Assembly (NCBI RefSeq): GCF_025751435.1
Contig: NZ_JAOWKY010000001.1
Location: 248,001-312,000, forward strand
Direction of reading: 5' to 3'
Length of the DNA: 64,000 nucleotides
Source of the DNA: Albidovulum marisflavi
Lineage (GTDB): Bacteria > Pseudomonadota > Alphaproteobacteria > Rhodobacterales > Rhodobacteraceae
The notes under the pieces were generated by a model that worked only from the letters and a program-made list of their open reading frames with translations, ran no database searches and was not told the DNA's origin. The translations under genes and the position numbers were made by a program. Shown here piece by piece: positions 7,587 through 62,814 of the stretch (positions are counted from its first letter, which is position 1; each line of letters opens with the position of its first letter).

Positions 7587-8144
7587 ATGGCCGAAGACAG
7601 GTTTCCCGGCTGGCACGGCACGACGATCATCGGCGTGCGCAGGGGCGGAGAAGTCGTGGTGGCGGGAGACGGGCAGGTGAGCCTGGGCCAAACCGTCATC
7701 AAGGGCACCGCGCGCAAGGTCCGCCGCCTGAGCCCCGGCGGGCGCGACGTGGTCGTGGGCTTCGCCGGATCCACGGCCGACGCCTTCACCCTGCTGGAAC
7801 GGCTGGAAAAGAAACTGGACGCGGCGCCCGGCCAGCTGACCCGCGCCTGCGTGGAACTGGCCAAGGACTGGCGCACGGACAAGTACCTGCAAAAGCTCGA
7901 GGCGATGCTGATCGTGACCGACGGCAAGACGCTGCTGGTCGTGACCGGCGCGGGCGATGTGCTTGAGCCGGAACATGACGTCGCTGCCATCGGGTCTGGC
8001 GGCAACTTCGCCCTGGCCGCCGCGCGCGGGCTGATGGAAACGGACCTTTCCGCGGAAGAGGTCGCGCGCAAGGCCATGGCGATCGCCGCCGACATCTGCG
8101 TCTACACCAACGGAAACCTCACGGTGGAGACCATCCGTGGCTGA
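7587..8144 (+). CDS. hslV: ATP-dependent protease proteolytic subunit HslV
   Basis: A 185-residue HslV, the threonine peptidase core of the HslVU (ClpQY) protease. The catalytic N-terminal threonine is the first T of GTTII after removal of an 11-residue propeptide, as in other alphaproteobacteria. [28 protein letters not shown] and DICVYTN are family signatures. The ATG at 7587 follows GGAGG at 7578-7582; an ATG at 7575 lacks such a site. In most bacteria hslU follows directly; here it starts 1.9 kb downstream beyond two other genes. Confidence 0.96.
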
Positions 8145-9219
8145 AACCCCCGAGCGCATGGATCCCGCCGATATCCGGGCGGCCGTCAAGGCGGGCATCC
8201 TGACCGAAGCGCAGGCGGCCGAGCTGAAGGCGCTCGGCGACAGCCGCGCCAATTACCGGGCAGAGCGCACACGCGAGGACGAGCCCTTCGAGTTCTTCAA
8301 GGGCTTTGCCGAGATCTTCGTCTCGGTCGGCCTTGCGATCCTCTTGGGCGGCATCGCGCTGTTGCTGGGCGTCATCGGCGGCGTCGGGATCCTGATCGCG
8401 ATTCCGGCGATCATGGCCGCGATTTCCTGGTGGATGGCGCGCTTCTTCACGCTGCGCTGGCGGATGAACCTGCCCTCGATGGTGCTGGCCAGCGCCTATT
8501 CGGGCGGCATCTACGTGTCGTCGCTGACGTTCCTTGGCCAATCCGACCTGGGGCTGAAGGCCGTGGCCTTCCTCTCTGCGACGATCGCCGCAGGAGCGAC
8601 GGCGCTATGGTTCCGCCGCTTCAAGCTGCCGTTTTCGATGTTCATCCTGGGCAGCTTTGCCTTGATGGCAACCTACGCGCTGTTCACCCGCTACAATCCC
8701 GGCGGCAGCTTTGACGACATCGATGGATGGGCCAGAAGTTTCGTTCCGCGCGCCAACCTGACGCTGGCGTCGCTTGTGTTCGGTGTGGCTGCCTTTGCCG
8801 GCGCGATGTTCTTTGACCTGAAGGACCCGCACCGTGTCGGAAGACACTCTGCCACGGCGTTCTGGCTGCACCTTCTGGCAGCCGGTGCACTTGTGAACGC
8901 GGTGGCGGGCAACATCTGGGCGCAGGCTGGCGGCACCAACATCCTGCCGACCGTCCTGGTCCTTGCCGCCTTCGCGCTTGTCGCCCTGGTGATCGACCGG
9001 CGGTCGTTCCTGACAGCGGGCATCATCTATATCGCCGCCATCATCTACTGGGCGGTTGCGGGCGAGGGCAGCGCCAGTCTGAAGGAGTGGGCGCTGATCC
9101 TCATCCTGCTGGGGCTGTTCTTCACCGTCCTGGGCACCTGGTGGATCCCGCTTCGCCGCCGTGTCATGCGCGCCCTGCCGGATTTCCCCGGCAAGAGCCG
9201 CCTGCCGCCAAGCTTCTAG
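8137..9219 (+). CDS. Multi-pass membrane protein of unknown function
   Basis: A 360-residue protein starting with GTG, which overlaps the hslV stop by 8 bases, so it is probably translated from the hslV message. The first 60 residues are a charged soluble stretch containing a short helical segment ([13 protein letters not shown]). The rest is about ten hydrophobic helices, starting with a glycine- and leucine-rich segment near residues 66-100, and the C-terminus is basic. The pattern resembles DUF2157-type membrane proteins, but I do not recognise a specific family and assign no function. An in-frame ATG at 8158 is an alternative start. Confidence 0.8.
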
Positions 9220-9240
9220 GCGCGAACCGGGGCGTCGGTT

Positions 9241-9927
9241 CTAACCTTCGTCCCAGTCATACTGCATGGTCTTCAGCGCCGCGCCCTTGCCGCCGCGCTG
9301 CTGCGTCTTGTTCTGGTTGTTCTTCTTTCCGGTAGCGACCACGTGCATCGTCTCGCCCTTCCAGAACCACGCGACGCTTTCGGTATTCGTGGCATGGGCA
9401 TGAAGCGCGCCGCCAAGATAGGGCACGCGGCCATGTCCGGTTTCCGTGGGTCCGGCCAGGGCGATCGACTCGATCTTGGTCTTCAGGTTCCTGTCGCCCT
9501 CGCAGGCGGACCTTACCTTGCCATTGGCATAGGTCACCTTGCAGGGCTCGGGCGCCGCGATCGGATCCTTGGCAAGGATCTCAAGCTCGCCCTTGATGCG
9601 GAACGTCTTGACCTCGCCCGCGACATCGGCCGACACCGTGAAGACCAGATCATAGCTGCCGATCTCGGTGAGCCGTCCCTGTAGGCCCGCCTTTCCCACA
9701 AGCGTCTTGGCCCCCGCCCCCGAAAGGCCGAATTCCTTGCCCGCCCAAAGCAGCAATTCCTTCCTGACATCGAAGTTCGATTTGATCTTCGTCGCGTTCA
9801 GATACTTGTCGGGCAGCGAAAAGGTCTTGGTCTTGCCCTTGACCTTGTCGGCGATCTTCTTGACGTCCTGCGCGGGCAGCGCGTCTTCGGGTTCAAGATA
9901 CAGATTGATCGTCGGCACGAAGGGCAC
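9241..9927 (-). CDS. Unknown lysine-rich soluble protein between hslV and hslU
   Basis: A 228-residue open frame on the strand opposite hslV and hslU. No signal peptide or membrane segment is visible. It is unusually rich in lysine and asparagine for this window, with clusters such as KKIADKVKGKTKT near residue 23 and KKNNQNKTQQ near 202. The ending is acidic (YDWDEG). A middle stretch (about 90-120) alternates like beta strands. I recognise no family. The start is GTG at 9927 or, with a better placed AGGGG, GTG at 9918. It converges on the membrane-protein gene (21-base gap) and diverges from hslU. Its composition suggests different ancestry from its neighbours. Confidence 0.7.
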   Translation of the reverse strand: MPFVPTINLYLEPEDALPAQDVKKIADKVKGKTKTFSLPDKYLNATKIKSNFDVRKELLLWAGKEFGLSGAGAKTLVGKAGLQGRLTEIGSYDLVFTVSADVAGEVKTFRIKGELEILAKDPIAAPEPCKVTYANGKVRSACEGDRNLKTKIESIALAGPTETGHGRVPYLGGALHAHATNTESVAWFWKGETMHVVATGKKNNQNKTQQRGGKGAALKTMQYDWDEG

Positions 9928-10030
9928 CCCTGTCTGGTTGTGTTACCGCTGCGGGCTTTGCTTTTGGTTGCGGAACAGTATCTACGCCTGCGTCCTGTCG
10001 GCAACTTCTTTCTGTCGTCGGCCCTTTGGG

Positions 10031-15872: not shown

Positions 15873-17223
15873 GACCGACCTCCGTCACTTCCAGCCGGAA
15901 GATGGCCATCGGATCGTCCAGCGCCATGATGTGGTGCAGGCAGAACTCGTAAACCGCGCCGCGGGTCATCTCGGCCGGCGAAAACGGGAAGGCGAAGGTC
16001 GGCATCGGTTCGTCTTCGGTCAGCGCGTGATGCAGAAGGTAGGGGTTGAGGATCTTGCCGATCTCGGCCGCCTGCGCCTCGGTAGGCGCGGTGACGATGG
16101 ACAGAACCCCGATCTCGGTCGGGACGATGCGCCCGGTTTCAAGGGGGCCCAGCGTGGCGTCCTGCCCGATCAGCCGCATCTCGATCGTGAATTCCGCCTG
16201 CGACAGGCCGGTCCGGTCCGCCGCGATCTGGCGGCAGCGGTTCGCGATGTCGTCGGCCCAGATACGGGCGTTTTCGACGTAGCGTCGGTCGCGCAGAAGG
16301 GTCAGGCTCACGACCTGACAGCCCGCGACGCGCGCACCTTCGAGCTTCACCGTGTAGAGGCCGGGAACCCAGACCGAACCCTCGACACGCACGCGCCGGT
16401 CATCGACCGCCGTGTAGCGCGATCCCGTGACGTCAAGGTGTCCGCCCGGTTCGTACAGGATGAAGGGATCCGTATTCTCGTAAAGCATGTGGGCCGAGAC
16501 GGTATAGGGCGTTGCCCGCGCGGTGCGGCCCAGGGGTTCGATCGTGAAACCGGTTTCGTCGAAGTCGATCTGGATGACGCCGGATGCGGGATTGGTCGTG
16601 GCAAGCGCCCCGCATTCACCGACCTTGGCGCCGTGCCAGGCAGCGCCCGCGTCGCAATTCCGCGCAATGGGCAGCGCCGCGATGATCGCCGTGTCGGTCG
16701 TGCGACCAGCGATGACGATGTCCGCGCCGGTGTCGATCGCCGCGCGGATCTGTTCCACCCCCGCCAGAGCGACGATGTTGGTGCAGGACCGAACCGTGTC
16801 CGCATCCACAAGGGGGGCGCCGCTCAGCGGGGTGACCGTGCCCGCCTGAAGCGCTTCGGCCACCGCTGATGGCATCTGGCCGGAATAGAGCCGCACGACC
16901 TTCAGCTTCTGGCCGAGCTCTGTCGCCAGTTCCACCGTGATCTCGTAAAGCCAGTCAACGGCGCTGTCGGCGCCGCATGTGCCGGCCGTGCCGATGACCA
17001 GGGGAACACCGGCCTCGGCGCGCGCCAGCATCAGGTCGCGCCATTCGGCCTTGGTGGTCGCGCGCGAATACTTCGACACCCCGCGCCCAAGGTAGGAGGG
17101 CCCGCTGTCCGTGGACCCTCCGTCAACCGCTATGATGTCGGGCCCGTTGGCCACGCCGCGGGCAAGCGCATCCCGATCGTAGGTCAGACCAAGGGCTCCG
17201 GTCGGTATCAGGACGCGCGTCAT
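15865..17223 (-). CDS. Acyclic terpene utilisation AtuA-like protein (DUF1446)
   Basis: A 452-residue DUF1446/AtuA-family protein. It has the family N-terminus with the DGGSTDSGP motif (about 33-41) and the conserved VIAGRTTDTA stretch near residue 178. AtuA is required for growth on acyclic terpenes in Pseudomonas, but most members have no proven reaction. The ATG at 17223 sits one base beyond the tctA stop. Because it is translated with a tripartite tricarboxylate transporter and a DUF4387 protein, it probably acts on the imported organic acid; this is inference from context. Confidence 0.88.
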   Translation of the reverse strand: MTRVLIPTGALGLTYDRDALARGVANGPDIIAVDGGSTDSGPSYLGRGVSKYSRATTKAEWRDLMLARAEAGVPLVIGTAGTCGADSAVDWLYEITVELATELGQKLKVVRLYSGQMPSAVAEALQAGTVTPLSGAPLVDADTVRSCTNIVALAGVEQIRAAIDTGADIVIAGRTTDTAIIAALPIARNCDAGAAWHGAKVGECGALATTNPASGVIQIDFDETGFTIEPLGRTARATPYTVSAHMLYENTDPFILYEPGGHLDVTGSRYTAVDDRRVRVEGSVWVPGLYTVKLEGARVAGCQVVSLTLLRDRRYVENARIWADDIANRCRQIAADRTGLSQAEFTIEMRLIGQDATLGPLETGRIVPTEIGVLSIVTAPTEAQAAEIGKILNPYLLHHALTEDEPMPTFAFPFSPAEMTRGAVYEFCLHHIMALDDPMAIFRLEVTEVGHG

Positions 17224-17224
17224 C

Positions 17225-18742
17225 TCAGTCCTCAATCGCACTTTCCGGCGCCTGCGGGCGCTTGAGCACGCCACGCAGGAACATCGGCGCTATAAACCCG
17301 ACTGCCGCCGCGATCCAGAGCACTGCCGCGATCGGCGAGGCGAACAGATAGGTCCAGTCACCGTCCGACAGCGTCATGGCGTGACGCAGGTTGTTTTCCA
17401 TCTGGTAGCCCAGAAGGATGCCCAGGATCACGGGTACGGTGGGAATGTCCATCTTGCGGAAGACATAGCCCATGACCCCGAAGACGATCATCAGGACAAG
17501 ATCGAAATAGCTGCCCGACAGCGAATAGATGCCGACGAAGGAAATCATGGTCACGCCCGGAAGCAGGATCGCAGGCGGCACCATCAGGACCTTCACGAAG
17601 ATCTTGACCATCGGCACGTTCATCGCCAGCAGGACGAAGTTCGCGATCAGGAGCGAGGCGATCAGGCCCCAGACGACCTCGGGCCGGTCCGCGAAAAGGG
17701 TCGGACCCGGCGTGATGTTCAGGGTCATCAGGACCGCAAGCAGCACCGCCGTCGTACCCGAACCGGGCACGCCCAGCGTGAGCATGGGCACCAGCGCACC
17801 GCCCGCCGCCGCATTGTTCCCGGCTTCGGGCGCGGCGACGCCCTTGGCAACGCCGGTTCCGAAGCCGCCCTTGTCGCCCGCGATGCCCTTTTCCATCATG
17901 TAGGTCATGAAGGATCCAAGCGAAGCGCCGGCGCCCGGCAGAACGCCCGCGACGAAGCCGACGGCGGAACAACGCAGCATCGTCCAGCGCGTGGACCACA
18001 TCTCGGCCCAGGGCACGGTCACCTTGCCAAGCTTGACGCCGACCGCGCTTGCCTTGCCGTGCGTTTCGATGAAGACGAAGACCTCGGACACCGCGAACAG
18101 ACCGACGATGGCAACCAGGAAGTCGACCCCGTCCGCCAGGTGAAGATTGCCGCCCGTGAAGCGGTAGAAGCCCGAGTTGTTGTCCAACCCGATCAGGGCG
18201 ATGGCAAGCCCGATGAAGGACGCGAGAGCCGCCTTGGCCTGGTTGTTCGACGCCATACCGCCGAGCGTGGCAAAGGCCAGCGCATAGAGCGCGAAGTATT
18301 CTGCCGGGCCGAACTTGTAGGCGATGCGCGCAAGGTAGGGTGCCACCATCGCCAGCGCGAGCGTCGCCAGCAGCGCACCCACGAAGGATGCGACGCCTGA
18401 GATCACCAGCGCATCACCCGCGCGCCCGGCCTTGGCCATCGGGTAGCCGTCGAGCGTGGTCATCATCGCCGGTTCGTCGCCGGGGATGTTCAGCAGGATC
18501 GAGGAGATCCGGCCGCCATACATCGCGCCGTAGTAGACCGAGGTCAGCAGGACAAGCGCCGCCGTGGCATCAAGACCCAGCGTGAAGGTTATGGGGATCA
18601 GGATCGCGACGCCGTTTGACGGGCCTAGCCCCGGCAGGGCGCCGATGATCGTGCCCAGAAAACAGCCGACGACCGCCAGGATAAGCGTCAGGGGCGAAAG
18701 GGCGACTCCGAACCCAAGCGCAAGGTTGGACAGAATTTCCAT
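17225..18742 (-). CDS. tctA: Tripartite tricarboxylate transporter large permease TctA
   Basis: A 505-residue, roughly 12-helix inner-membrane permease of the TctA family. It contains the glycine-rich GALPGLGPSNGVAILIP stretch (about 36-52) and the second conserved GVLPGAGASLGSFMTY and PGSGTTAVLLAVL segments typical of the family. It moves di- or tricarboxylates with a sodium or proton gradient, together with TctB and the binding protein TctC. Order tctC-tctB-tctA is standard. The substrate (citrate, tartrate, aromatic acid or other) cannot be read from sequence. Confidence 0.95.
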   Translation of the reverse strand: MEILSNLALGFGVALSPLTLILAVVGCFLGTIIGALPGLGPSNGVAILIPITFTLGLDATAALVLLTSVYYGAMYGGRISSILLNIPGDEPAMMTTLDGYPMAKAGRAGDALVISGVASFVGALLATLALAMVAPYLARIAYKFGPAEYFALYALAFATLGGMASNNQAKAALASFIGLAIALIGLDNNSGFYRFTGGNLHLADGVDFLVAIVGLFAVSEVFVFIETHGKASAVGVKLGKVTVPWAEMWSTRWTMLRCSAVGFVAGVLPGAGASLGSFMTYMMEKGIAGDKGGFGTGVAKGVAAPEAGNNAAAGGALVPMLTLGVPGSGTTAVLLAVLMTLNITPGPTLFADRPEVVWGLIASLLIANFVLLAMNVPMVKIFVKVLMVPPAILLPGVTMISFVGIYSLSGSYFDLVLMIVFGVMGYVFRKMDIPTVPVILGILLGYQMENNLRHAMTLSDGDWTYLFASPIAAVLWIAAAVGFIAPMFLRGVLKRPQAPESAIED

Positions 18743-18751
18743 GAGATATCC

Positions 18752-19195
18752 TCAGCCCATCAGGGCGCGCGGAAGGGCGACAAGCCCCAGACCCAACGCG
18801 TATTTGAAGATGACGTAAAGCCCGCCGGACAGACTGACGCCGATCAGCACCGCGCGAACGGGCTTGGGGTCGATCTGATAGCTCAGGATCCCCGCGACGA
18901 TCGCCGTCGGGATCAGGAAACCCGAGGGCTTGAGCGCATAGGCATAGCCGACCATGACCACCGTCGCGAAAGCCAGCGACAAGAGCGACCTGGCTTGCGG
19001 CCAGTCCGGCTCTGCGTCCGGCTTCATGATCATCGCCGCTGCGCTGATCGCCATTCCGACGCCGACGATGATCGGGAAGACCTTTGGGCCGAGCTTGTCG
19101 AAGATGTTTCCGGGCGGAAGGTTGTAGGCGCTCGCGATGAACGCGAGCGCCACAAGGATCACGACCACTCCGAAGATGCGGTCGGTTCTGATCAT
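18752..19195 (-). CDS. tctB: Tripartite tricarboxylate transporter small membrane subunit TctB
   Basis: A 147-residue membrane protein with four hydrophobic segments (about 8-27, 39-57, 72-90, 96-140), the size and topology of TctB. It starts at the ATG at 19195, overlapping the tctC stop, and ends 9 bases before tctA. It is needed for TctA function; sequence conservation in the family is low, so the call rests on topology and position. Confidence 0.9.
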   Translation of the reverse strand: MIRTDRIFGVVVILVALAFIASAYNLPPGNIFDKLGPKVFPIIVGVGMAISAAAMIMKPDAEPDWPQARSLLSLAFATVVMVGYAYALKPSGFLIPTAIVAGILSYQIDPKPVRAVLIGVSLSGGLYVIFKYALGLGLVALPRALMG

Positions 19196-29599: not shown

Positions 29600-30269
29600 C
29601 GTCCCCAAGCCCCGCGACGAATTTGCTGTGCGCCGCGGCCTCTGCCTCGGTCAGGCGCGAGGGCAGCGGAACCAGGCGCGGACGCGGACGCCAGCCTGCA
29701 TCCGCGACCGGACCTTCCGCGGCCGCGATTTCAACCGAAAGCGCGAAATCCGGCTGCCGGCCTCCGATCAGCTCAAGATAGACCTCGGCCAGAAGTTCGC
29801 TGTCCAGAAGTGCGCCGTGCTTTTCGCGGGCCGAGTTATCGATACCGAACCGGCGGCACAGCGCATCCAGCGAGGCGGGAGAGCCCGGAAACTTGCGCCG
29901 GGCCATGGCCACCGTGTCCAGCGCCCGGTCCATCGCGATTATTCCGTGACCTGCCCAGTTCAACTCGGCGTTCAGGAACTTCATGTCGAAGGCGGCATTG
30001 TGGATCACCAGGCGGGAATCCGTCCCGATGAAGTCGAGAAACGCCAGTGCGACCTGTCCGAACTTGGGCTTGTCACGCAAAAAGTCGTCGCCCAGGCCGT
30101 GCACCTCGAATGCCTCGGTCGGCATCATCCGTTCGGGGTTGATGTACTGATGATAGGTGCGCCCCGTCGGAACGTGATTGAACAGCTCGATCGCGCCGAT
30201 CTCGACGATCCTGTGGCCCTCGGCCGGTTCGAAACCCGTGGTTTCGGTATCCAGAACGATTTCACGCAT
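29574..30269 (-). CDS. dnaQ: DNA polymerase III subunit epsilon (proofreading 3'-5' exonuclease)
   Basis: A 231-residue DEDDh exonuclease: DTETTG (residues 7-12, first D and E), HNAAFD (second D, about 90-95), and the third motif [18 protein letters not shown] with its catalytic histidine and aspartate. The polymerase-binding C-terminal tail is proline-rich. It proofreads as part of the replicase core. The ATG at 30269 overlaps coaE by 8 bases. A position a few kb from the putative origin fits a replication gene. Confidence 0.95.
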
Positions 30270-30864
30270 CGTTGCCCCCGATCCTCCGGATCAGGTTTCG
30301 CACGTCGGCACGGGTCTGTTCAAGATCTCGCGTCTCGATGACGTGGGTCGCGCGGGCGCGCTTCTCGGCGTCGGGCATTTGTCGGGCAAGGATAATGTCC
30401 AGTTGCGCCGGCGTCATTCCCGGACGCGACAGCACGCGTTCCCGCTGAACCGCTGCCGGAACCGATACGACCAGCGTCGCGTCCATTCCGGCGTCCGCCC
30501 CGGTTTCGAAAAGCAGCGGGATATCCAGCACCACAAGCGGCGCGCCAGAGCGCGCAGCAGCCTTGATGAAGCCCGCGCGGTCCGCCGCGACCAGGGGATG
30601 CACCGCCGCTTCGATCCGTTTCAACGCGGTCGGGTCTTGGGCGATCCACTCCTTCAGCCGCGCACGATCCACGAAACCGTCCACGATGGCCGCCGGGCAA
30701 AGCGCGCCGATTGCCGGGACCGCGGCGCCGTCCTTTGCGTAAAGCCTGTGAACGGCGGCGTCGGCATCCCAGACTGGCACGCCCTCATCGCGGAACATGG
30801 CTGCTGTTGTCGATTTGCCCATGCCGATCGAGCCGGTGAGGCCCAGAAGGAAGGGTTGGCTCAT
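30262..30864 (-). CDS. coaE: Dephospho-CoA kinase
   Basis: A 200-residue P-loop kinase that performs the last step of coenzyme A synthesis. The Walker A variant GSIGMGKST (about 11-19) is followed by [12 protein letters not shown], the CoA-site motif, and a lid region rich in arginine. The ATG at 30864 overlaps the aroE stop (ATGA). Full length. Confidence 0.94.
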
Positions 30865-31700
30865 CCCTTCAGAACCACGTCGCGGGTGTGCTGGTCCACC
30901 TCTGGGCGCTTTCCGAACCAGCGTTCGAAACCGGGCGCGGCTTGGTGCAGCAGCATGCCAAGGCCGTCGACGGTCGTGCAGCCGATTTCGGCGGCGGCTT
31001 CAAGGAATGCCGTCCGAAGTGGGGTATAGACGAGGTCGTTGACCACCGCCTTCGGAGAAAGCGCGTCAAGCGGAACCCGAAGATCGGGCTTGCCGACCAT
31101 TCCCAGGGAAGAGGTGTTCACGACGGTGACCGCATCCTCCATCATGTTCCCGGCCTTGACCCAATCGTAGACGACAACCCGGGCGCCGAACTCGGATCGG
31201 ATCACGTCGGCGCGCGCGCGGGTCCGGTTCGCGATCCGAACCTCCGGGGCACCGGCATCCAGCAATGCGGACACCACGGCGCGCGCCGCGCCGCCGGCGC
31301 CGATGACGGCCGCCGGTCCGGATGCGGGTGCCCAGTCCGGCGCATATTGCCTCAGGTTGGCGGCGAAGCCGTGACCGTCGGTGTTGTCGGCATGGATCTT
31401 GCCGTCGGCGCGGAAGATCAGCGTGTTCGCGGCCCCGATCAGCGCCGCGCGATCGGTCACGATATCAGCCAGCGCCAGCACGCTTTCCTTGTGCGGGATC
31501 GTGACGTTCAACCCCACGAACCCCGCTTTGGGCAGGGCGTGCAGCACTTCCTTCAGATCGGCCTGCGCCACGTCCATCGGGATATAGTATCCCTTGATCC
31601 CGTAGGTCTTCAGCCAGTAGCCGTGCAAAAGCGGCGACTTCGAATGCGCGATCGGGGACCCGATGACGCCGGCAAGCGGTATGCGAGGATGGTCGGTCAT
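30861..31700 (-). CDS. aroE: Shikimate dehydrogenase (NADP+)
   Basis: A 279-residue shikimate pathway enzyme that reduces 3-dehydroshikimate. Substrate-site motifs [11 protein letters not shown] (about 13-23) and LNVTIPHKE (about 64-72, with the catalytic lysine) are present, then NADP-binding GAGGAARAV (about 135-143) and NRTRARAD. Its ATG overlaps the maf stop by four bases. Confidence 0.95.
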
Positions 31701-32293
31701 GATGCGATGTCGCCCCGAACGGAAAGCCAGGTCAAGAGTTCCAGAAGCGGAAGGCCCAAGACATTGAAATAATCGCCTTCCACGCGTGCCATCAGGCGCA
31801 CGCCCTCTTCCTCAAGCTTGTAGGCGCCGACGCTATGGCGGATGCTTTCCCAGTTTCGCGCCAGATAAGCGTCCATGTAATCGTCGGAAAAATCCCGCAT
31901 CGTCATTCTTACGATGCCGACGTGACGCCAAAGCGGCTGACCGTCGCGGCACACGACCGCCGCCGAAAGCAGGCGGTGCGTCCGCCCGCGCATTTCGCCA
32001 AGCTGCCGGCGCGCGTGCTCAAGACTTTCGGGCTTCGAATAGAGACGCCCGTCCATTTCAAGAACCTGATCCGCACCCAGGACCAGCATTCCTGGCCTGC
32101 GCGCGGAAACCTTGGTCGCCTTGGCTTCGGCCAGCGCGTCGGCGATATCCCGCGGCCTTGCGGCTTCGGCCTGAAGCGCGGCGCGAATGGTCTCTTCATC
32201 GACCCTCGGCACCTCGGTTTCGATGGCAAGGCCGGCATTCCCAAGAAGCGCCGCGCGGATTTGGGAACCAGAGGCAAGGATGAGATCTGTCAT
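31697..32293 (-). CDS. maf: Maf-family nucleoside triphosphate pyrophosphatase
   Basis: A 198-residue house-cleaning pyrophosphatase that hydrolyses non-canonical or modified nucleoside triphosphates. It has the N-terminal motif [12 protein letters not shown] (about 6-17; the commoner form is LASGSP.R), the conserved [12 protein letters not shown] (about 71-82) with the catalytic aspartate, and the C-terminal [11 protein letters not shown]. The ATG at 32293 is the first in the family frame. It is the first gene of the leftward operon beside the putative origin. Confidence 0.93.
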
Positions 32294-32298
32294 CGGTC

Positions 32299-32307
32299 TG
32301 TGGATAT
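32299..32307 (-). promoter_or_regulatory. DnaA-box-like site
   Basis: Reads ATATCCACA on the minus strand, one mismatch from TTATCCACA. It is the leftmost site of the cluster, just upstream of maf. Confidence 0.5.
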
Positions 32308-32575
32308 TTCCGGGGATCACTGAACCGCAAACCTGCGCAAATCCCGCCCTGTTTTCAACACCTGGCCGAGGTGTGTGGGAAACACGAGGCTTGTCAAGCC
32401 GTCCGGGGCCATCATCCCACATGTGCGCGATGTTTTCCCGCGACTGTGCAGAACGTTTCGCCGATCTGCCCCGGCGGATTTCATGCACAGCCATAGAGTT
32501 TTTGTATGACGAGCAAGCCATTGATTTAATGTAACAAATATTAGGATATCCGAAGCAGGGAAAGTTTTACTGCGG

Positions 32576-32584
32576 TTATCCGCA
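32576..32584 (+). promoter_or_regulatory. DnaA-box-like site
   Basis: TTATCCGCA, one mismatch from the consensus box, directly right of the most AT-rich part of the gap. Confidence 0.55.
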
Positions 32585-32622
32585 GGATGTTCCGCCTGTG
32601 GACAGTTTGTGTCCGGATGGCA

Positions 32623-32640
32623 TTATCCAACGTATCCACA
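32623..32640 (+). promoter_or_regulatory. Two adjacent DnaA-box-like sites
   Basis: TTATCCAAC (32623-32631) abuts GTATCCACA (32632-32640); the second has one mismatch from TTATCCACA. Head-to-tail boxes with no spacer suit cooperative DnaA binding. Confidence 0.55.
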
Positions 32641-32723
32641 GGCCCAACATCATCATCATTCTTTTCTTTTCTATTTGTATTTTTGTAGGAAGAGGCATCG
32701 CGCTCTTGTGGACACTGACCGAC

Positions 32724-33173
32724 ATGACGGATCTGCTCGCTTCGATTTACCCTTGGACCAAGGCGCTTCATGTGGTCTCGGTGGTGGCCTGGATGGCGGG
32801 GCTATTCTATCTGCCCAGGCTGTTCGTCTACCACGTGGAAGCGGTATCGGGCGGATCGGAGACGGACAGCCTGTTCCAGACGATGGAGCGGCGGTTGCTG
32901 CGGGCCATCATGAATCCGGCAATGATTGCTACCTGGATTTTCGGGCTGATGCTGGTGTTCACGCCCGGCATTGTCGATTGGTCCGAAGTCTGGCCGTGGA
33001 CCAAGGCCGCAGCGGTGCTGGGAATGACCTGGTTTCACCATTGGCTGGGACGCAGACGGAAGGAGTTCGTCGCTGGAAAAAACACGCGGACTGGCCGTCG
33101 TTACCGGTTGATGAACGAGGTGCCGACGCTTCTTCTGCTGGTGATCGTCTTTTCGGTGATCGTCAAATTCTGA
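32724..33173 (+). CDS. hemJ: Protoporphyrinogen oxidase HemJ
   Basis: A 149-residue, four-helix membrane protein of the HemJ family, which oxidises protoporphyrinogen IX to protoporphyrin IX in many proteobacteria. The signature LHVVSVVAWMAGLFYLPRLFVYH includes the conserved histidine (H16) that binds heme. WTKAAAVLGMTWFHHWLGRRRKEF is the second conserved block. The ATG at 32724 is chosen because upstream in-frame codons lie in the AT-rich putative origin. First rightward gene beside oriC; a heme gene (often hemE) near the origin is a known alphaproteobacterial pattern. Confidence 0.92.
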   Translation: MTDLLASIYPWTKALHVVSVVAWMAGLFYLPRLFVYHVEAVSGGSETDSLFQTMERRLLRAIMNPAMIATWIFGLMLVFTPGIVDWSEVWPWTKAAAVLGMTWFHHWLGRRRKEFVAGKNTRTGRRYRLMNEVPTLLLLVIVFSVIVKF

Positions 33174-33295: not shown

Positions 33296-34567
33296 ATGCA
33301 CCAGGACCGCCTGAACCTTGCCGACCTGAAGGCAAAAAGCCCCGCCGATCTGCTTGCGATGGCCGAGGAGCTGGAGATCGAAAACGCCTCGACCATGCGC
33401 AAGGGCGAGATGATGTTCTCCATCCTGCGCGAATACGCGGACGAGGGATACGAGGTCGGCGGCGATGGCGTTCTGGAGGTGCTTCAGGACGGGTTCGGCT
33501 TCCTGCGGTCGCCGGAGGCGAACTACCTGCCGGGTCCGGACGATATCTACGTCAGCCCCGACATGATCCGGCAGTATTCCATCCGCACCGGCGACACGGT
33601 CGAAGGGGTGATCCGCGCGCCCGGCGACAATGAACGCTACTTTGCGCTGACCAAGGTCACGCGCATCAATTTCGAGGATCCGGACAAGGCGCGCCACAAG
33701 GTCGCATTTGACAACCTGACGCCGCTTTACCCGGACGAACGCCTGAAGATGGAGATCGAGGATCCCACCATCCGCGACCGTTCGGCCCGGATCATCGACC
33801 TGGTGGCGCCGATCGGGAAGGGGCAGCGCGGCCTGATCGTGGCGCCGCCGCGGACCGGCAAGACGGTTCTGCTCCAGAACATTGCCCATTCGATTGAGAA
33901 GAACCATCCGGAGTGCTACCTGATCGTCCTTCTGATCGACGAACGCCCCGAGGAAGTCACCGACATGCAGCGCAGCGTGCGCGGCGAGGTCATTTCGTCG
34001 ACCTTCGATGAACCGGCGACGCGGCACGTGGCCGTCGCAGAGATGGTGATCGAAAAGGCCAAGCGTCTGGTCGAGCACAAGCGCGACGTCGTCATCCTAC
34101 TGGACTCGATCACCCGTCTTGGCCGCGCCTACAATACCGTGGTGCCGTCGTCGGGCAAGGTCCTGACCGGCGGCGTCGATGCGAACGCACTGCAGCGCCC
34201 CAAGCGCTTTTTCGGTGCCGCGCGCAACATCGAAGAGGGCGGTTCGCTGACCATCATCGCGACCGCGCTGATCGATACCGGCAGCCGGATGGACGAAGTC
34301 ATCTTTGAAGAGTTCAAGGGTACCGGCAACTCCGAGATCGTGCTGGACCGCAAGGTCGCGGACAAGCGGGTGTTCCCGGCCATGGACATTCTCAAGTCCG
34401 GCACGCGGAAGGAAGACCTTCTGGTCGATTCGAAGGACCTGCAGAAGACCTATGTCCTGCGCCGCATCCTGAACCCGATGGGGACAACGGATGCGATCGA
34501 GTTCCTGATCTCGAAGCTGAAGCAAACCAAGACGAACGGCGAGTTCTTCGATTCCATGAACGCCTGA
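33296..34567 (+). CDS. rho: Transcription termination factor Rho
   Basis: A 423-residue hexameric RNA helicase. The N-terminal Rho_N domain ([25 protein letters not shown] region) leads into the cold-shock-like RNA-binding fold with [23 protein letters not shown]. The ATPase has Walker A PPRTGKT (about 184-190), [12 protein letters not shown], Walker [16 protein letters not shown], and the Q/R loops. The ATG at 33296 gives the standard N-terminus. Confidence 0.97.
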
Positions 34568-35891: not shown

Positions 35892-37766
35892 GTGTTTCAC
35901 GTGAAACAATTCGATGTCATCGTTGTGGGCGGCGGGCATGCCGGCACCGAGGCTGCGCACGCCTCGGCGCGGCTGGGCGCGCGCACGGCGCTTGTCACGC
36001 TTCGAACCGACAGCATTGGCGTCATGTCGTGCAATCCCGCGATCGGCGGCCTTGGAAAGGGCCACCTGGTGCGGGAGATCGATGCGTTGGACGGGGTCAT
36101 GGGCCAGGCGGCGGATCGCGCCGGCATCCAGTTCCGTCTATTGAACCGTCGAAAGGGACCAGCCGTTCAGGGGCCAAGAACGCAGGCCGACCGCAAGCTG
36201 TACCGTCAGGCTGTTCAGAGAATGCTCGCCGACAGAGCGGGCCTTTCCTTGATCGAGGGGGAGGTTTCGGACCTGTTGATGCAGGGCGCCAGGGTTTCGG
36301 GCGTCGTTCTGGCCGATGGAAGCGAGATCACTTCGGATTCGGTTATCCTCACGACCGGTACATTCCTGCGCGGCACAATCCACATCGGAGACCAACGCCG
36401 TCCTGGGGGTAGGGTCGGTGACAATCCCTCGGTGCCGCTGGCGGAACGACTTGAAGCGCTGGCGCTTCCCCTTGGCAGGCTGAAAACCGGAACGCCACCC
36501 CGCCTGAATGGCCGGACGATCGACTGGACGCGGTTGGAAGCGCAACCGGGTGACGATGACCCCGTGCTGTTCTCGTTCCTGAACCGGAAGCCCTTCGTTC
36601 AGCAGGTATCATGCGGCATCACGCACACCAACGAAAAGACGCACGACATCATTCGCGCGAACCTGAGTCGTTCGGCGATGTATGGTGGCCACATCGAAGG
36701 GGTGGGGCCGCGCTACTGCCCCTCGGTCGAGGACAAGGTGGTCCGCTTCGCGGACAAGGCGTCACATCAGGTGTTTCTTGAACCGGAGGGGCTGGACGAC
36801 GACACCGTGTATCCGAACGGGATCTCAACATCTCTGCCGGCCGAGGTGCAGGAGGCCTATGTCCACACGATCGCAGGGCTTGAAAGCGCAGAGATCCTGC
36901 AGCCTGGCTATGCCATCGAATACGACTATGTCGATCCGCGCGCTTTGCGCAGCACTTTGGAGTTGAAGGCGCTGAGCGGGCTATATCTTGCGGGCCAGAT
37001 CAACGGAACCACCGGATATGAGGAGGCGGGAGCTCAAGGTCTTGTGGCTGGCTTGAATGCGGCCCTTGCTTCGCAGGGGCGCGAACCCGTGGTCTTCGGC
37101 AGATCGGACAGCTACATCGGCGTGATGATCGACGATCTCGTGACGCGCGGTGTCGCAGAACCCTATCGGATGTTCACGTCCCGGGCAGAGTTTCGCTTGT
37201 CTCTCCGCGCGGATAATGCGGATCAACGGCTCACGCCGTTGGGCTTGCGGGTCGGATGTGTCGGCGGCATCCGCGAAAGGGCATTCTCCTATAAGATGGA
37301 GGCAATCTCTGAGGGGCGCTCTCTGCTGGGACAGCTTCGGCTGACCCCAAAAGAGGCTTCCGATCGCGGAATTCGCGTCAGCCAGGATGGTGTTCGCCGG
37401 GATGGGTTCACCTTGCTTGCCTTTCCGGACGTAACATTTGCTGATCTGGAGAAAATTCACCCGCCGCTGGCTTCTGTCCCGCCGGAGGTGCGGGCGCAGA
37501 TTGAGCGTGACGCGCTTTACGCGCAGTATCTTGAGCGTCAATCGTCGGACGTGGCCCAGATGAAGCGCGACGAAGGCCACGAGATTCCCGACGACTTCGA
37601 TTTTTCGGCTCTTTCCGGTCTATCCGCCGAACTCAAGGGTAAGCTGACCCGCATTCGACCCAGGGATCTGTCTCAGGCTGCAAGGGTAGATGGAATGACC
37701 CCGGCGGCCCTGACGCTGATTCTCGCGCGGTTGAAGCAGGCCGAGCGGCGGCGGTCGGCTGGATGA
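35892..37766 (+). CDS. mnmG: tRNA uridine-5-carboxymethylaminomethyl modification enzyme MnmG (GidA)
   Basis: A 624-residue FAD-dependent partner of MnmE. FAD-binding [19 protein letters not shown] begins near residue 11; [24 protein letters not shown] and [13 protein letters not shown] are family signatures, and the second conserved cysteine motif [13 protein letters not shown] lies near 238. Start is GTG at 35892 or GTG at 35901; the latter has AAGGAG at better spacing. The first codons are formed by a parS palindrome (35893-35908), so the N-terminal FHVKQ is dictated by a DNA-binding site. Confidence 0.96.
35893..35908. promoter_or_regulatory. parS centromere site 1
   Basis: A perfect 16-bp palindrome, TGTTTCACGTGAAACA, identical to the canonical bacterial parS recognised by chromosomal ParB. 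It covers the first codons of mnmG and sits about 3.3 kb right of the putative origin. Confidence 0.95.
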
Positions 37767-38383
37767 GCGCTGAGCAGTTCCTGGAAAGGCGCAGTGTTTC
37801 ACGTGAAACATTGGAAAGGCTGACCGCTTTCAGCGCGTTGCTAGACAGGTGGAATCCCGCGATAAACCTCGTTTCGGCCGCGACGCTGAAACAAGTATGG
37901 ACGCGCCACTTTCTTGATTCTGCGCAGATTCTGGATCTGACCAACATCCGATCCGGCCTTTGGGCCGATTTGGGTTCCGGCGGCGGATTTCCTGGGCTGG
38001 TCCTGGCAATCCTCGCAGCAGAGGAGCGGCCAGATCTTCACTTCACACTTGTCGAATCGGATCAGCGCAAGGCAGCCTTTCTGACAACGGCGGCGCGTTC
38101 CCTTGCCGTTTCGGCGAGAGTCCTTTCGGATCGCATCGAACACCTTCCCGGACTGGGCGCGAACATGTTGTCGGCGCGTGCGCTTGCACCACTCGACACA
38201 CTTCTTGATTACGCGGACCTTCATTTGGCGCCGGCGGGGCGGGCAGTATTTCCCAAGGGTGCGAGATACCGCCAGGAAATCGAACAGGCGCTTGAAAAAT
38301 GGCGCTTTTCATACGAGATGCATGCCAGCTTGACGGATCCTGACGCCGTCATCCTGACAGTCGGGGAGATTTCGCGTGCTTGA
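37763..38383 (+). CDS. rsmG: 16S rRNA (guanine(527)-N7)-methyltransferase RsmG (GidB)
   Basis: A 206-residue SAM-dependent methyltransferase for m7G527 of 16S rRNA. The SAM motif I is [14 protein letters not shown] (about 69-82), followed by [12 protein letters not shown] (about 97) and the conserved RALAPL stretch. The start overlaps the mnmG stop (ATGA), and parA starts inside its end. Codons 11-16 lie over a second parS site and read VSRET, a common N-terminal motif in alphaproteobacterial RsmG. Loss of this enzyme gives low-level streptomycin resistance in other bacteria. Confidence 0.95.
37795..37810. promoter_or_regulatory. parS centromere site 2
   Basis: A second perfect TGTTTCACGTGAAACA palindrome, inside the 5' end of rsmG and 566 bp before parA. 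It is read in a different codon phase from site 1 (VSRET instead of FHVKQ). Confidence 0.95.
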
Positions 38384-39182
38384 TCCAACCCGCCCGCCGG
38401 GCCCCAGGATAATTGCGATCGCCAATCAGAAGGGCGGTGTCGGAAAGACGACAACGGCCATCAACCTGGCCGCCGCGCTCGCCGAGGACGGATTGCGCGT
38501 GCTGCTGGTCGATCTGGATCCCCAAGGAAACGCCTCGACCGGACTTGGGATCGAATCAACCCAACGCGGCCTGACGACCTATGACCTGCTGATCGAGGAC
38601 GCGGCATTGTCCGATGTTGTCCGCAAGACCGAGGTTCCCGGAATCTGGATCTGCCCGGCGACGACAGACCTGTCGTCGGCCGATATCGAGCTTGTCGCCA
38701 ACGAAAAGCGCAGTTTTCTTCTTTACGACGCGCTTCGGCAGCCGGCGATCGATGCCTATGCCTTCGACTATGTCCTGATCGATTGCCCGCCGTCGCTGAG
38801 CCTTCTGACGGTAAACGCGATGATTGCCGCCCAATCTGTCCTGATACCCCTGCAGGCAGAGTTCTTCGCCCTTGAGGGTCTGTCGCAACTGATGCTGACC
38901 GTGCGCCAGGTGCGCCAGACGGCCAACAAGGACTTGCGGATCGAGGGAATCGTGCTCACGATGTATGATGGCAGGAACAACTTGGCACAACAGGTAGAGG
39001 CCGACGCGCGGGAGAACCTTGGAGAGCTTGTGTTTCGCACCATCGTGCCCCGCAATGTCCGCATCAGCGAGGCGCCGTCCTATTCCGTGCCTGTCCTGAC
39101 CTACGATACGACGTCAAAGGGCAGCCTTGCCTATCGCGCGCTGGCGCAAGAGCTTCTGGCACGGCACGCCCGCGCAGCCTGA
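38376..39182 (+). CDS. parA: Chromosome partitioning ATPase ParA
   Basis: A 268-residue Walker-type ATPase that forms the DNA-bound gradient along which ParB-parS complexes move. The deviant Walker [10 protein letters not shown] (about 19-27) carries the signature lysine, DLDPQGNAS is the A' motif, and [12 protein letters not shown] is Walker B. The start is GTG at 38376, eight bases inside rsmG and after GGGGAG. Its stop lies 10 bases before parB. Confidence 0.96.
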
Positions 39183-39192
39183 GAGGATTTCG

Positions 39193-40086
39193 ATGAGCGA
39201 CAAGAAAACCGAGCGCCGTGGGCTGGGAAGGGGACTTTCCGCCCTCATGGCTGATGTAAGCTTGGCGCCAGGCCGCGATGAGCAGGCTACCCCTCGTCGG
39301 GCCGAGGCTTTCATCCCCATCGAAAAGATTGAACCCAATCCCAACCAGCCCCGCAGGGACTTCGCGCCCGAGGCCCTTGAAGAACTTGCACAGTCGATTC
39401 GTGAAAAGGGCGTCATACTTCCGCTTCTGGTCAGGAAAAGCCCCGTAAAACCCGACTTCTACGAAATCGTTGCGGGCGAGCGGCGTTGGAGGGCGGCACA
39501 GGCGGCCCAGCTTCATGAAGTTCCGGTCCTGATTCGCGATTTCAACGACACCGAGGTTCTGGAAGTCGCGATCATCGAGAACATCCAGCGGGCCGACCTG
39601 AATCCGGTGGAGGAGGCGATGGCCTATCGTCAACTCATGGATCGCTTCGGTCACACGCAGGAAAAGATGGCCGAGGCGCTTTCCAAAAGCCGAAGCCACA
39701 TCGCAAACCTGCTTCGCCTTCTTCAACTGCCGGCGGAAGTCCTGACCTGGCTGCGGGAAGGGAAACTGTCGGCCGGTCACGCCCGTGCGTTGATTACCTG
39801 TCCAGATCCCGTGTCGCTCGCGCGCGACGTCATCTCTCGCGGTCTGTCCGTCCGTCAGACCGAAGAGCTTGCCCGCAAGAGCCAGGGCGGCGAAAGCCGC
39901 AAGCCGCGCGCCAAGGCCGAGTCAAAGGATGCCGACACGAAGGCGCTGGAGGGCGATCTGAGCGCAAACCTTGGTATGCGCGTCAGTATTTACCACAAGG
40001 GATTGGATGGTGGGGATCTGGTCATCAGTTACCGGTCGCTTGATGAGCTTGACGAACTTTGCCAGAAGCTTTCGGGATTTTCCTAG
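39193..40086 (+). CDS. parB: Chromosome partitioning protein ParB
   Basis: A 297-residue parS-binding CTPase. It has an N-terminal RGLGRGLSALM motif (ParA-interacting region, about 9-19), the CTP-binding GERRWRAA (about 95-102) and ENIQRADLNP motifs, a helix-turn-helix around 150-175 (LSKSRSHIANLLRLLQLP) that reads parS, and a C-terminal dimerisation domain after a basic linker. Two perfect parS sites lie 1.4 and 3.3 kb upstream. The stop codon overlaps that of the convergent ybaN gene in a CTAG. Confidence 0.96.
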   Translation: MSDKKTERRGLGRGLSALMADVSLAPGRDEQATPRRAEAFIPIEKIEPNPNQPRRDFAPEALEELAQSIREKGVILPLLVRKSPVKPDFYEIVAGERRWRAAQAAQLHEVPVLIRDFNDTEVLEVAIIENIQRADLNPVEEAMAYRQLMDRFGHTQEKMAEALSKSRSHIANLLRLLQLPAEVLTWLREGKLSAGHARALITCPDPVSLARDVISRGLSVRQTEELARKSQGGESRKPRAKAESKDADTKALEGDLSANLGMRVSIYHKGLDGGDLVISYRSLDELDELCQKLSGFS

Positions 40087-60801: not shown

Positions 60802-61500
60802 TCAGCAGCCGGTGCCCTTGACCACGACGCGCAGCGTGGCCGCGAGGATCAGCAGGTCACCCGGCAGAGACAGGTCGCGTTCATACTGCCGGTCAAACTC
60901 CGCGCGGCGCGCGAATTCGCAGGTGTTGCGCTCGGACACCTGCCACAGCCCGGTTACGCCCGGGCGCAGAGCATAATAGGAAAGGCCGCTGTAAAGGTCG
61001 CGCTGCTCGGGCAGCATCGGACGGGGCCCGACCAGCGACATCTCTCCTACCAGCACGTTCCAAAGCTGGGGAAGCTCGTCCAGCGACGACTTGCGAAGGA
61101 AGCGGCCGATGCGTGTGATCCGGGGATCCGAGCTCAGCTTCTGCTTGCTTTCCCATTCCCGGCGGGCTGCTTCGTTCTGCGCCAGGTAATCCCTGAGCAT
61201 CCGGTCGGCGCCGGGTACCATCGTGCGCAACTTGAGCATGTGAAAGGTTCGACCGTTTCTACCCACGCGGTCGGAGCGGTAGAACGGACTATGCCCATCC
61301 ACCGCGACCAGGATCGCAAGAAAGCCGATCAGCGGAAGCACGATCACGGACCCCGCAAGCACGAGCATGATGTCCATGACGCGCTTGAAGATGTTCCGGT
61401 AGAGCCCCGATTGATGGGGAACGTGAACCAAGCCAGCAGGCGCAACCTTTTGCGCAAGAGCCTCGGAAAGATTGTTCATTTGCAAAGTCATACAGCACAT
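60802..61500 (-). CDS. Undecaprenyl-phosphate sugar phosphotransferase (ExoY/WcaJ-type bacterial sugar transferase)
   Basis: A 232-residue initiating glycosyltransferase that puts the first sugar-1-phosphate of the repeat unit on the lipid carrier. One membrane helix (about 45-68) precedes the catalytic domain with FHMLKLRTMVPGA, RKSSLDELPQLWNVLVGEMSLVGPRP and RPGVTGLWQVSERN, all family signatures. Being short, it resembles ExoY rather than the long WcaJ with extra helices. The start may be the ATG at 61500, 61491 or 61479. Divergent from the ATPase gene across the regulatory gap. Confidence 0.92.
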   Translation of the reverse strand: MCCMTLQMNNLSEALAQKVAPAGLVHVPHQSGLYRNIFKRVMDIMLVLAGSVIVLPLIGFLAILVAVDGHSPFYRSDRVGRNGRTFHMLKLRTMVPGADRMLRDYLAQNEAARREWESKQKLSSDPRITRIGRFLRKSSLDELPQLWNVLVGEMSLVGPRPMLPEQRDLYSGLSYYALRPGVTGLWQVSERNTCEFARRAEFDRQYERDLSLPGDLLILAATLRVVVKGTGC

Positions 61501-61774
61501 ATCCGGGGGCAGCTCCCGGATCCCTGGGGCGTAGTTGCCCTAAACTCATTACACCTGCGAAAGATCAAACTCGCCTCCGCGCGATCTTAGCATTCAGAGG
61601 GAGTCGCACAAATCCGCAATTGGGCCGAACGGCAAATTTGTCAAAAAAAAGGCTTTAATGAGGCGTGTGTGGGACATAGCTGATTGGTCGATCGGCGATC
61701 AGGCAGCGACTCGGTTTCTAAATGGTAAACACAAGTTAACACTTGTCGATAATTGTTTCCGCAGAGGGATCAGA
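61501..61774. promoter_or_regulatory. Divergent regulatory region of the exopolysaccharide locus
   Basis: A 274-bp AT-rich gap between two divergent exopolysaccharide operons. AAGATC (61561-61566) and GATCTT (61583-61588) form an inverted repeat near the sugar transferase. ACAAGT (61731-61736) and ACTTGT (61741-61746) form a tight perfect palindrome around TAAC, 29 bases before the small frame at 61775. An A-run lies at about 61642-61650. It should hold promoters for both directions and binding sites for an unidentified regulator. Confidence 0.55.
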
Positions 61775-61909
61775 ATGGCTTGCATGAACAAGACTTCGAT
61801 TCGATTTCAGGCTAACAAGGTACAAGTGATTCCGGTGTCAGGGGACCCCGTCTGCCGGCAGAGTGCGCCGGTCTTGCCCTACCCCCTTGTGATGAGTGAA
61901 AGACGTTGA
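61775..61909 (+). CDS. Possible 44-residue leader or small protein upstream of the ATPase gene
   Basis: A short frame with ATG at 61775, a GAGGGA ribosome-binding site six bases upstream, and a stop overlapping the start region of the ATPase gene. The peptide is basic with two N-terminal methionine-cysteine turns (MACMNKTS) and a proline-rich end (PVLPYPLV). No homologue is known to me. It may simply couple translation into the ATPase gene. Confidence 0.35.
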   Translation: MACMNKTSIRFQANKVQVIPVSGDPVCRQSAPVLPYPLVMSERR

Positions 61910-61914
61910 GCACG

Positions 61915-62814
61915 ATGAGCCGACCGCACGAGATGACGGGCAGCGACCACAATGATGGTTCGGCGATCGGATTCTATCTCGATTTCTTCGGGTTCCGCGA
62001 ACGTCCCTTCACGCTGGTGCCAGACCCGGATTTCCTGTTCTGGTCGCCGCAACACCGCCGTGCCTATTCGGTGCTGGAGTTCGGCATCATGTCACGCGCG
62101 CCGATCACTCTGGTCACGGGCGGCGTAGGCTGCGGGAAGACGACGCTGCTGCGCGAACTCCTTCGCCAGTTCGAGGCCCGAGCGACTGTTGGCCTGATCT
62201 CGAACGCGCAGGGCGGGCGCGGGGAACTGATCCAATGGGTTCTGAACGCTCTCGGGGTCAGCTTCGATGCATCCGAAGGTTATGTGCGGATGTTCCAGCG
62301 GCTTCAGGACTTCCTGATCGACGAATATTCCGCGGGCCGCAGGGTCGTGCTGATCTTCGACGAAGCGCAGAACCTGTCGGGCGAAAGCCTTGAAGAACTC
62401 CGGATGCTGACGAACATCAACACCGGCAAGGACGAGGTGATCCAACTGGTGCTGGTTGGTCAGCCCGAACTTAGAGAGATGGTGCTCGATCCCTCGTTGC
62501 GTCAACTCGCGCAGCGGATCGCGGCGAGCTTCCATCTCAAGCCCCTGGACGAAGCCGGCGCTGTGGAAATGGTGGCGCACAGGCTGACCGCAGCGGGCGG
62601 AACCGGCAAGGAAATCACCCGCGCCGCGATCAAGCGGATCTTTGGCGTGACGAAGGGCGTTCCACGTCTGATGAACCAGCTCTGCGACATGTCGCTGCTT
62701 TATGCCTGGACAACCGACAATTACCGGGTGGACGAACACGTGGTCCAGTCCGTCCTGGATGACGGCGTGTTCTTTGCCGCGCAGATCCAGGCAGAGGATG
62801 AGAAACGGAAATGA
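61915..62814 (+). CDS. ExeA-like AAA ATPase of the exopolysaccharide locus
   Basis: A 299-residue ATPase of the ExeA/XrtA-associated type. FYLDFFGFRERPFTLVPDPDFLFWS near residues 20-44 is the family start, Walker A is GGVGCGKTT (69-77), Walker B VVLIFDEAQN (144-153), and LVGQPELREML-like LVGQPELREMV lies near 183. Such ATPases sit beside Wzc-type genes in exopolysaccharide operons. I use the ATG at 61915; a TTG at 61906 is in frame. It overlaps the next gene's start (ATGA). Confidence 0.87.
   Translation: MSRPHEMTGSDHNDGSAIGFYLDFFGFRERPFTLVPDPDFLFWSPQHRRAYSVLEFGIMSRAPITLVTGGVGCGKTTLLRELLRQFEARATVGLISNAQGGRGELIQWVLNALGVSFDASEGYVRMFQRLQDFLIDEYSAGRRVVLIFDEAQNLSGESLEELRMLTNINTGKDEVIQLVLVGQPELREMVLDPSLRQLAQRIAASFHLKPLDEAGAVEMVAHRLTAAGGTGKEITRAAIKRIFGVTKGVPRLMNQLCDMSLLYAWTTDNYRVDEHVVQSVLDDGVFFAAQIQAEDEKRK

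Follow-up and report, generated by a model that had tools for sequence, protein, structure and literature searches.

We analysed a window of 64,000 nucleotides of the Albidovulum marisflavi chromosome (C2:248001-312000 of a 3.82-Mb, ten-contig genome) in which two gene clusters run away from each other. Family models place maf, aroE, coaE and an RNase_T-type exonuclease to the left of the point of divergence, and hemJ, rho, mnmE, mnmG, rsmG, parA and parB to its right. The start codons of maf (minus strand) and hemJ (plus strand) bound a gap that begins at C2:280294 and extends for exactly 430 bp, flush with the maf start on one side and with the hemJ ATG on the other. The main features, in window coordinates, are:

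30262 to 30864, minus strand: coaE (family model)
30861 to 31700, minus strand: aroE (family model)
31697 to 32293, minus strand: maf, Maf family nucleotide pyrophosphatase (family models)
32294 to 32723, unstranded: the whole maf-hemJ gap, predicted oriC (gap extent, conservation in relatives, box clustering)
32724 to 33173, plus strand: hemJ, protoporphyrinogen oxidase HemJ, TIGR00701 (family model)
33296 to 34567, plus strand: rho (family models)
35894 to 35907, unstranded: putative parS core (GTTTCACGTGAAAC) at the start of mnmG (pattern match)
37796 to 37809, unstranded: putative parS core (GTTTCACGTGAAAC) near the start of rsmG (pattern match)
38376 to 39182, plus strand: parA (family model)
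39193 to 40086, plus strand: parB, start not settled (family models)

The gap has a GC content of 50.5%, against 59-71% in 2-kb windows across the 64 kb, those overlapping the gap included, and its AT content is above the genome average (20-kb samples of the genome are mostly 60-68% GC). The coordinates and these values agree with an earlier, sequence-only reading of the locus, which had described a 430-bp AT-rich gap between divergent genes in a GC-rich region. Within the gap the AT-richness is patchy, with AT fractions of 0.62-0.75 in 40-nt windows only around 32494-32573 and 32634-32693. Some open reading frames extend mechanically into it, for example that at 32187-32534 (plus strand). Elsewhere in the window, GC falls to 0.59 at 61001-63000, the lowest 2-kb value apart from the gap's, and the AT skew has its strongest peaks at 8001-10000 (-0.21) and 17001-19000 (+0.21).

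Using TTATCCACA as the DnaA box consensus, we found the following principal matches in the gap:

32299 to 32307, minus strand: one-mismatch box (ATATCCACA) at the maf-side end
32576 to 32584, plus strand: one-mismatch box (TTATCCGCA)
32597 to 32605, minus strand: two-mismatch box (CTGTCCACA), its columns partly conserved in the 80-gap alignment described below
32623 to 32631, plus strand: two-mismatch box (TTATCCAAC), abutting the next
32632 to 32640, plus strand: one-mismatch box (GTATCCACA) beside the predicted unwinding element

The cluster of boxes, six of which had been listed from the sequence, thus stands and is larger than first noted: three matches have one mismatch (32299, minus; 32576 and 32632, plus), ten in all have two or fewer, and the pair at 32623-32631 and 32632-32640 abuts head to tail. 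Mononucleotide shuffles of the gap gave three one-mismatch boxes once in 5000 and ten two-mismatch boxes in none of 5000. We read 830 kb of the 1.81-Mb contig, window included, and among the 45 one-mismatch matches there, the gap is the only 430-bp stretch to hold at least three; it is likewise the only one with at least eight matches at two mismatches. A perfect box is absent from the gap, and the two perfect ones in the 830 kb sit singly elsewhere (C2 397096 and 559889).

We then used similarity to HemJ to fetch 80 loci, a sample that is biased to genomes keeping hemJ. One of these, L086, was left out of the gap counts because its stretch has no maf; in all 79 relatives where both genes could be read, maf and hemJ are divergent and separated by 382-481 bp. 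The first in the search were Rhodobacter ruber and Defluviimonas sediminis, both at 83%. Taking these 79 gaps together with the window's own, the median length is 415 bp and the median GC content 49%, compared with 59% for the whole loci, while one-mismatch boxes occur at 7.2 per kb in the gaps and 0.15 per kb elsewhere in those loci, a roughly 47-fold difference. Counted per gap, there are no such boxes in 3 gaps, one in 5, two in 18, three in 24, four in 23, five in 6 and six in 1. A hemE match was found in none of the 80 relative loci. The earlier suggestion of an unusually compact origin is therefore not upheld, given that maf and hemJ flank the gap with neither hemE nor the dikinase regulator in 79 of 79 HemJ relatives (there are exceptions in the family, described below) and that its length is like that of the 404-bp Caulobacter origin. 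In D. sediminis the genes touching the gap are more diverged than their neighbours, with rho 97% and aroE 92% identical to those of the window and maf and hemJ only 79% and 83%. A HemJ match is absent from 14 of 120 family genomes and weak in 14 others (best E above 1e-10), so hemJ was probably lost from beside the origin in part of the family.

Another way to view the locus is against the class as a whole. We picked 20 stretches from 105 genomes of the class with a HemJ match, fifteen from the highest scorers (skipping G079 and G016) and five from single-contig genomes. The one stretch from the same family has the order maf, gap, hemJ. The 19 others all carry hemE upstream of hemJ, and in 16 of them maf was found beyond it, an arrangement that matches the position of Caulobacter crescentus Cori between hemE and COG1806 (PMC1914354). 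At least three one-mismatch boxes fall within 430 bp in 8 of the 20 stretches, and each such cluster starts 212-675 bp upstream of hemE (seven) or hemJ (one); in another 8 there are at most one or two within that distance, and in 4 there are none at all. In L169 the dikinase regulator lies between maf and the gap and a ferrochelatase between hemE and hemJ, leaving a gap of ~380 bp between regulator and hemE. The regulator's family, PF03618, was found in 6 of 100 genomes of the window's own family as against 54 of 96 across the class. Four of these six (G142, G156, G198 and G215) have 408-473 bp between the PF03618 and HemJ matches, and two (G145 and G195) have ~1.46 kb, which leaves room for hemE. 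Conversely, the single-contig family genome G234 is without PF03618 and keeps hemE between the gap and hemJ, with ~350 bp separating maf from hemE. Such intermediate states suggest that the losses of the regulator gene and of hemE were independent events on the two sides of a gap that was itself retained, a history that we draw from the gene states rather than from a tree.

These comparisons bear on a different account of the gap, namely that it is no more than an extended promoter region for the divergent maf and hemJ operons, in which DnaA boxes regulate transcription. The genes on both sides do diverge, and there is one sigma-70-like match at 32599-32626, where shuffles average 0.4. However, the density of boxes in the 80 gaps is far above that of their surroundings, and a gap of similar length is found beside other neighbours, whether PF03618 and HemJ (four family genomes), maf and hemE (G234) or regulator and hemE (L169). 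We regard the promoter account as very improbable.

Cori, identified experimentally, is described as a 404-bp region between hemE and COG1806 carrying DnaA boxes and CtrA sites, five of each, and a single IHF site (PMC1914354). The window's gap shares with it, as so described, the syntenic point of divergence, a similar length, an AT content above that of the genome and the presence of DnaA boxes; it differs in having neither hemE nor the COG1806 dikinase regulator at its flanks, and in lacking a TTAA-N7-TTAA CtrA site where Cori has five (PMC1914354). In this genome hemE lies ~415 kb away and PF03618 was not found. Since there is no hemE in the 80 relative loci and PF03618 is present in only 6 of 100 family genomes, these boundary genes fail as a criterion for most of the family and not for this locus alone.

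Partition genes are a second landmark of origins in this class, with parAB near the origin in almost all of 179 alphaproteobacterial genomes, the exceptions named including Rhodobacterales (PMC8116508). In the A. marisflavi genome parA and parB lie close to the gap. Searching the whole genome with up to one mismatch for GTTTCACGTGAAAC, which we take to be the parS core, gave only two matches, both perfect, at 3.2 and 5.1 kb from the gap; as a control, the pattern read backwards matches once.

A minimum of GC skew at the gap had been proposed as a check on the origin, and in the genome itself it was not obtained cleanly. The skew is weak: 12 of 13 20-kb bins left of 260 kb are negative, four are positive and three negative between 260 and 400 kb, and most are positive from 400 kb. 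A change-point fitted to the raw skew falls at 408 kb (bootstrap 5-95%: 380-436 kb), 128 kb to the right of the gap at 280.3 kb. A fit to fourfold sites corrected for gene strand falls instead at 215 kb (bootstrap 120-860 kb), 65 kb to its left; the corrected fits use genes that have at least 20 fourfold G/C sites and, in this genome, the sequence up to 1.02 Mb. At 280.5 kb the corrected skew shows a significant step (t 4.35), though not the best-fitting one. The skew of this genome thus gives estimates on both sides of the gap without locating the origin.

Taken at face value, the fits at 215 and 408 kb would favour a true origin elsewhere within ~130 kb, the gap then being an old or accessory cluster of DnaA boxes. 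The two fits, however, disagree in direction. Moreover, the contiguous 150-440 kb that we read holds no second cluster of three one-mismatch boxes, the genome's only parS-core matches are by this gap, and the skew of the relative G186 switches near the gap, so that we give a displaced origin slightly less credence even than the promoter account. In other bacteria dnaA or hemE mark origins, and the bootstrap range of the corrected fit (120-860 kb) is wide enough to hold hemE, at C2:695849. Nevertheless, we rejected both dnaA (C2:34978) and hemE as the site of the origin and judge that either has a negligible chance of being it, as the skew is negative in samples around dnaA, ~244 kb from the gap, and positive in those on either side of hemE, ~415 kb from it. 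Furthermore, hemE adjoins frames that we presume to be coproporphyrinogen-oxidase-like and hemC-like, and not the maf-rho cluster.

We also sampled the skew of relatives. In G186 (single contig), 7 of 9 samples to the right of hemJ are positive and 8 of 10 to the left negative, with the local stretch positive. At 1-kb resolution the bins at 3219, 3220 and 3221 kb, the last of which contains the gap, have values of -0.10, +0.04 and +0.22, so the sign turns within ~1 kb of the gap, a local step that is not independent of gene direction because the coding strand also turns there. In G234 (single contig), 9 of 9 samples on the right are positive and 7 of 10 on the left negative, the local stretch is slightly negative and, after correction, the skew fits best with a change point 56-96 kb to the right of the gap. 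The switch in these two relatives is a further point against a mere promoter region. For G245, of which we treated the largest of three contigs as a circle, the raw skew does not switch cleanly, 15 of 20 samples being positive. After correction the best-fitting change points fall 166-214 kb to the left, and the step at hemJ is also significant (t 5.6). The skews of G245:C1 are very large and change sign (+0.19 to -0.21 in 20-kb samples), exceeding those of G000, G234 and G186.

Box clustering, the proximity of parS and parAB, the conservation of the gap in relatives and the skew switch in two single-contig relatives all support the proposal, made originally from the sequence, that the maf-hemJ gap is oriC, and we hold this to be very probably correct. 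The part of the gap that is most recognisable across relatives is its hemJ end, where a tandem box, a GC-starting spacer, ATC repeats and a T-rich run follow one another. In the window this end reads TTATCCAAC GTATCCACA GGCCCAAC ATC ATC ATC ATT CTT TTC TTT, and the elements of interest for unwinding are:

32641 to 32648, plus strand: GC-starting spacer of 8 nt between box and triplets (8 being the commonest length, in 17 of 43 gaps)
32649 to 32669, plus strand: seven triplets with T in the middle, DnaA-trio-like
32649 to 32690, unstranded: AT/T-rich tract, predicted DNA unwinding element (sequence, AT profile)
32494 to 32553, unstranded: second AT-rich block, alternative unwinding site, overlapping an 18-nt imperfect direct repeat (32489/32516)

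Of the 80 gaps, 47 contain the word CATCATC in the 115 nt that precede hemJ, as compared with 1 of 80 that has it elsewhere in the gap and 0.45 of 80 after shuffling; the reverse word GATGAT occurs in 5 of 80. ATCATC is present near hemJ in 50 gaps, 43 of which have a box (up to two mismatches) within 30 nt upstream; the spacer between them is 8 nt in 17 of these 43 and 8-14 nt in 34, the remainder being 18-21 nt.

This order resembles the DnaA-box/DnaA-trio system of Bacillus subtilis and others, which is described as having tandem boxes, a short GC-starting spacer, triplets with a conserved middle A on the bottom strand and then AT-rich DNA (PMC8287927, PMC8235120). A published rule for the basal unwinding system comprises a box with up to two mismatches, a spacer of 0-16 and at least three NAN triplets (PMC8287927), and the window's gap contains such an arrangement in the form of a one-mismatch box, a spacer of 8 and seven triplets. 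Applied anywhere in the gap and on either strand, the rule with a one-mismatch box finds 41 of 80 gaps against 15 of 800 shuffles, the pattern being missing in the other 39, and with a two-mismatch box 62 of 80 gaps against 81 of 400 shuffles. Full shuffles of the window's gap gave seven triplets in 0 of 1000, a control that overstates the case for the triplets because it also destroys the boxes. In a fairer control, which leaves the box intact and shuffles only the 70 nt following it, seven triplets arose in 155 of 10000 and five in 1131 of 10000, so chance would seldom, but sometimes, produce such a run in T-rich DNA. The commonest triplet in the described systems is CTA, or 3'-GAT-5' on the bottom strand (PMC8287927, PMC8235120), whereas the window has ATC on top and 3'-TAG-5' below. 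Should these triplets act as a trio, they would therefore be a variant form of a motif that both sources call degenerate (PMC8235120, PMC8287927).

The sequence of events that we propose at the origin is as follows. DnaA would load on boxes throughout the gap, the tandem pair at 32623-32640 being the decisive one, and from there would extend over the GC-starting spacer onto the ATC/YTT triplets at 32649-32669. The adjacent T-rich tract on the hemJ side would then be pulled apart and helicase loaded there, and, with the origin firing in vivo, two forks would leave. The copied origin would be segregated by ParB acting on the two putative parS sites 3-5 kb away. More tentatively, and with somewhat less than even confidence, we propose that Rhodobacteraceae origins have an unwinding form of their own, in which a tandem DnaA box is followed by a GC-starting spacer, mostly 8-14 nt long, and by directional ATC repeats that present 3'-TAG-5' rather than 3'-GAT-5' on the bound strand. 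On this view it is the element that has been kept constant and not its neighbouring genes, hemE and the dikinase regulator having each disappeared independently from one side of the origin.

Origins in this family have been placed before. A set of 101 Rhodobacteraceae chromosome origins consists of Ori-Finder predictions curated by skew, GC minimum and parAB, with eight strains not assigned unambiguously (PMC6699656), and for those of Rhodobacter sphaeroides the location came from skew, with Ori-Finder as a check (PMC6315104). The former set concerns the same family and relies on the same kinds of evidence as apply here (DnaA boxes, a local GC minimum, proximity to parAB), but its main text does not name hemE, maf or hemJ, and so does not give a match between the predicted sites and the maf-hemJ gap (PMC6699656). 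Nor is maf-hemJ named as an origin site in the titles or abstract openings of the open-licence literature that we searched. The maf-hemJ gap is thus the usual arrangement of the family and not an oddity, with an unwinding element that is possibly lineage-specific. For draft Rhodobacteraceae genomes, a divergent maf-hemJ gap of ~400 bp offers a simple rule for oriC, useful where skew can be weak and the standard boundary gene hemE is usually missing, and the short conserved element at its hemJ end provides a named candidate for the unwinding site.

We also searched the gap for other elements. The CtrA form TTAA-N7-TTAA is absent from the window's gap, which has one loose TTWW-N7-TTWW, and the strict form occurs in 8 of the 80 gaps. 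The loose form occurs in 56 of 80 at a mean of 1.44 against 0.28 in mononucleotide shuffles, an excess that might be explained by AT clustering, which shuffles do not keep. What we assume to be the IHF consensus has one match in the window's gap, at 32514 (minus strand), and is matched in 7 of the 80 gaps. We rejected an RNA element within the gap, since Rfam gave one sub-threshold match and that outside the gap, and GGGNAGGG as a replichore marker gave counts in genome samples too sparse for use. GANTC methylation sites were likewise rejected as a feature of the gap, numbering zero in the window's own and averaging 3.02 per gap across the 80 (3.06 after shuffling); over the window as a whole, GANTC is about twice as frequent in 32501-64000 as in 1-32500 (61 against 27).
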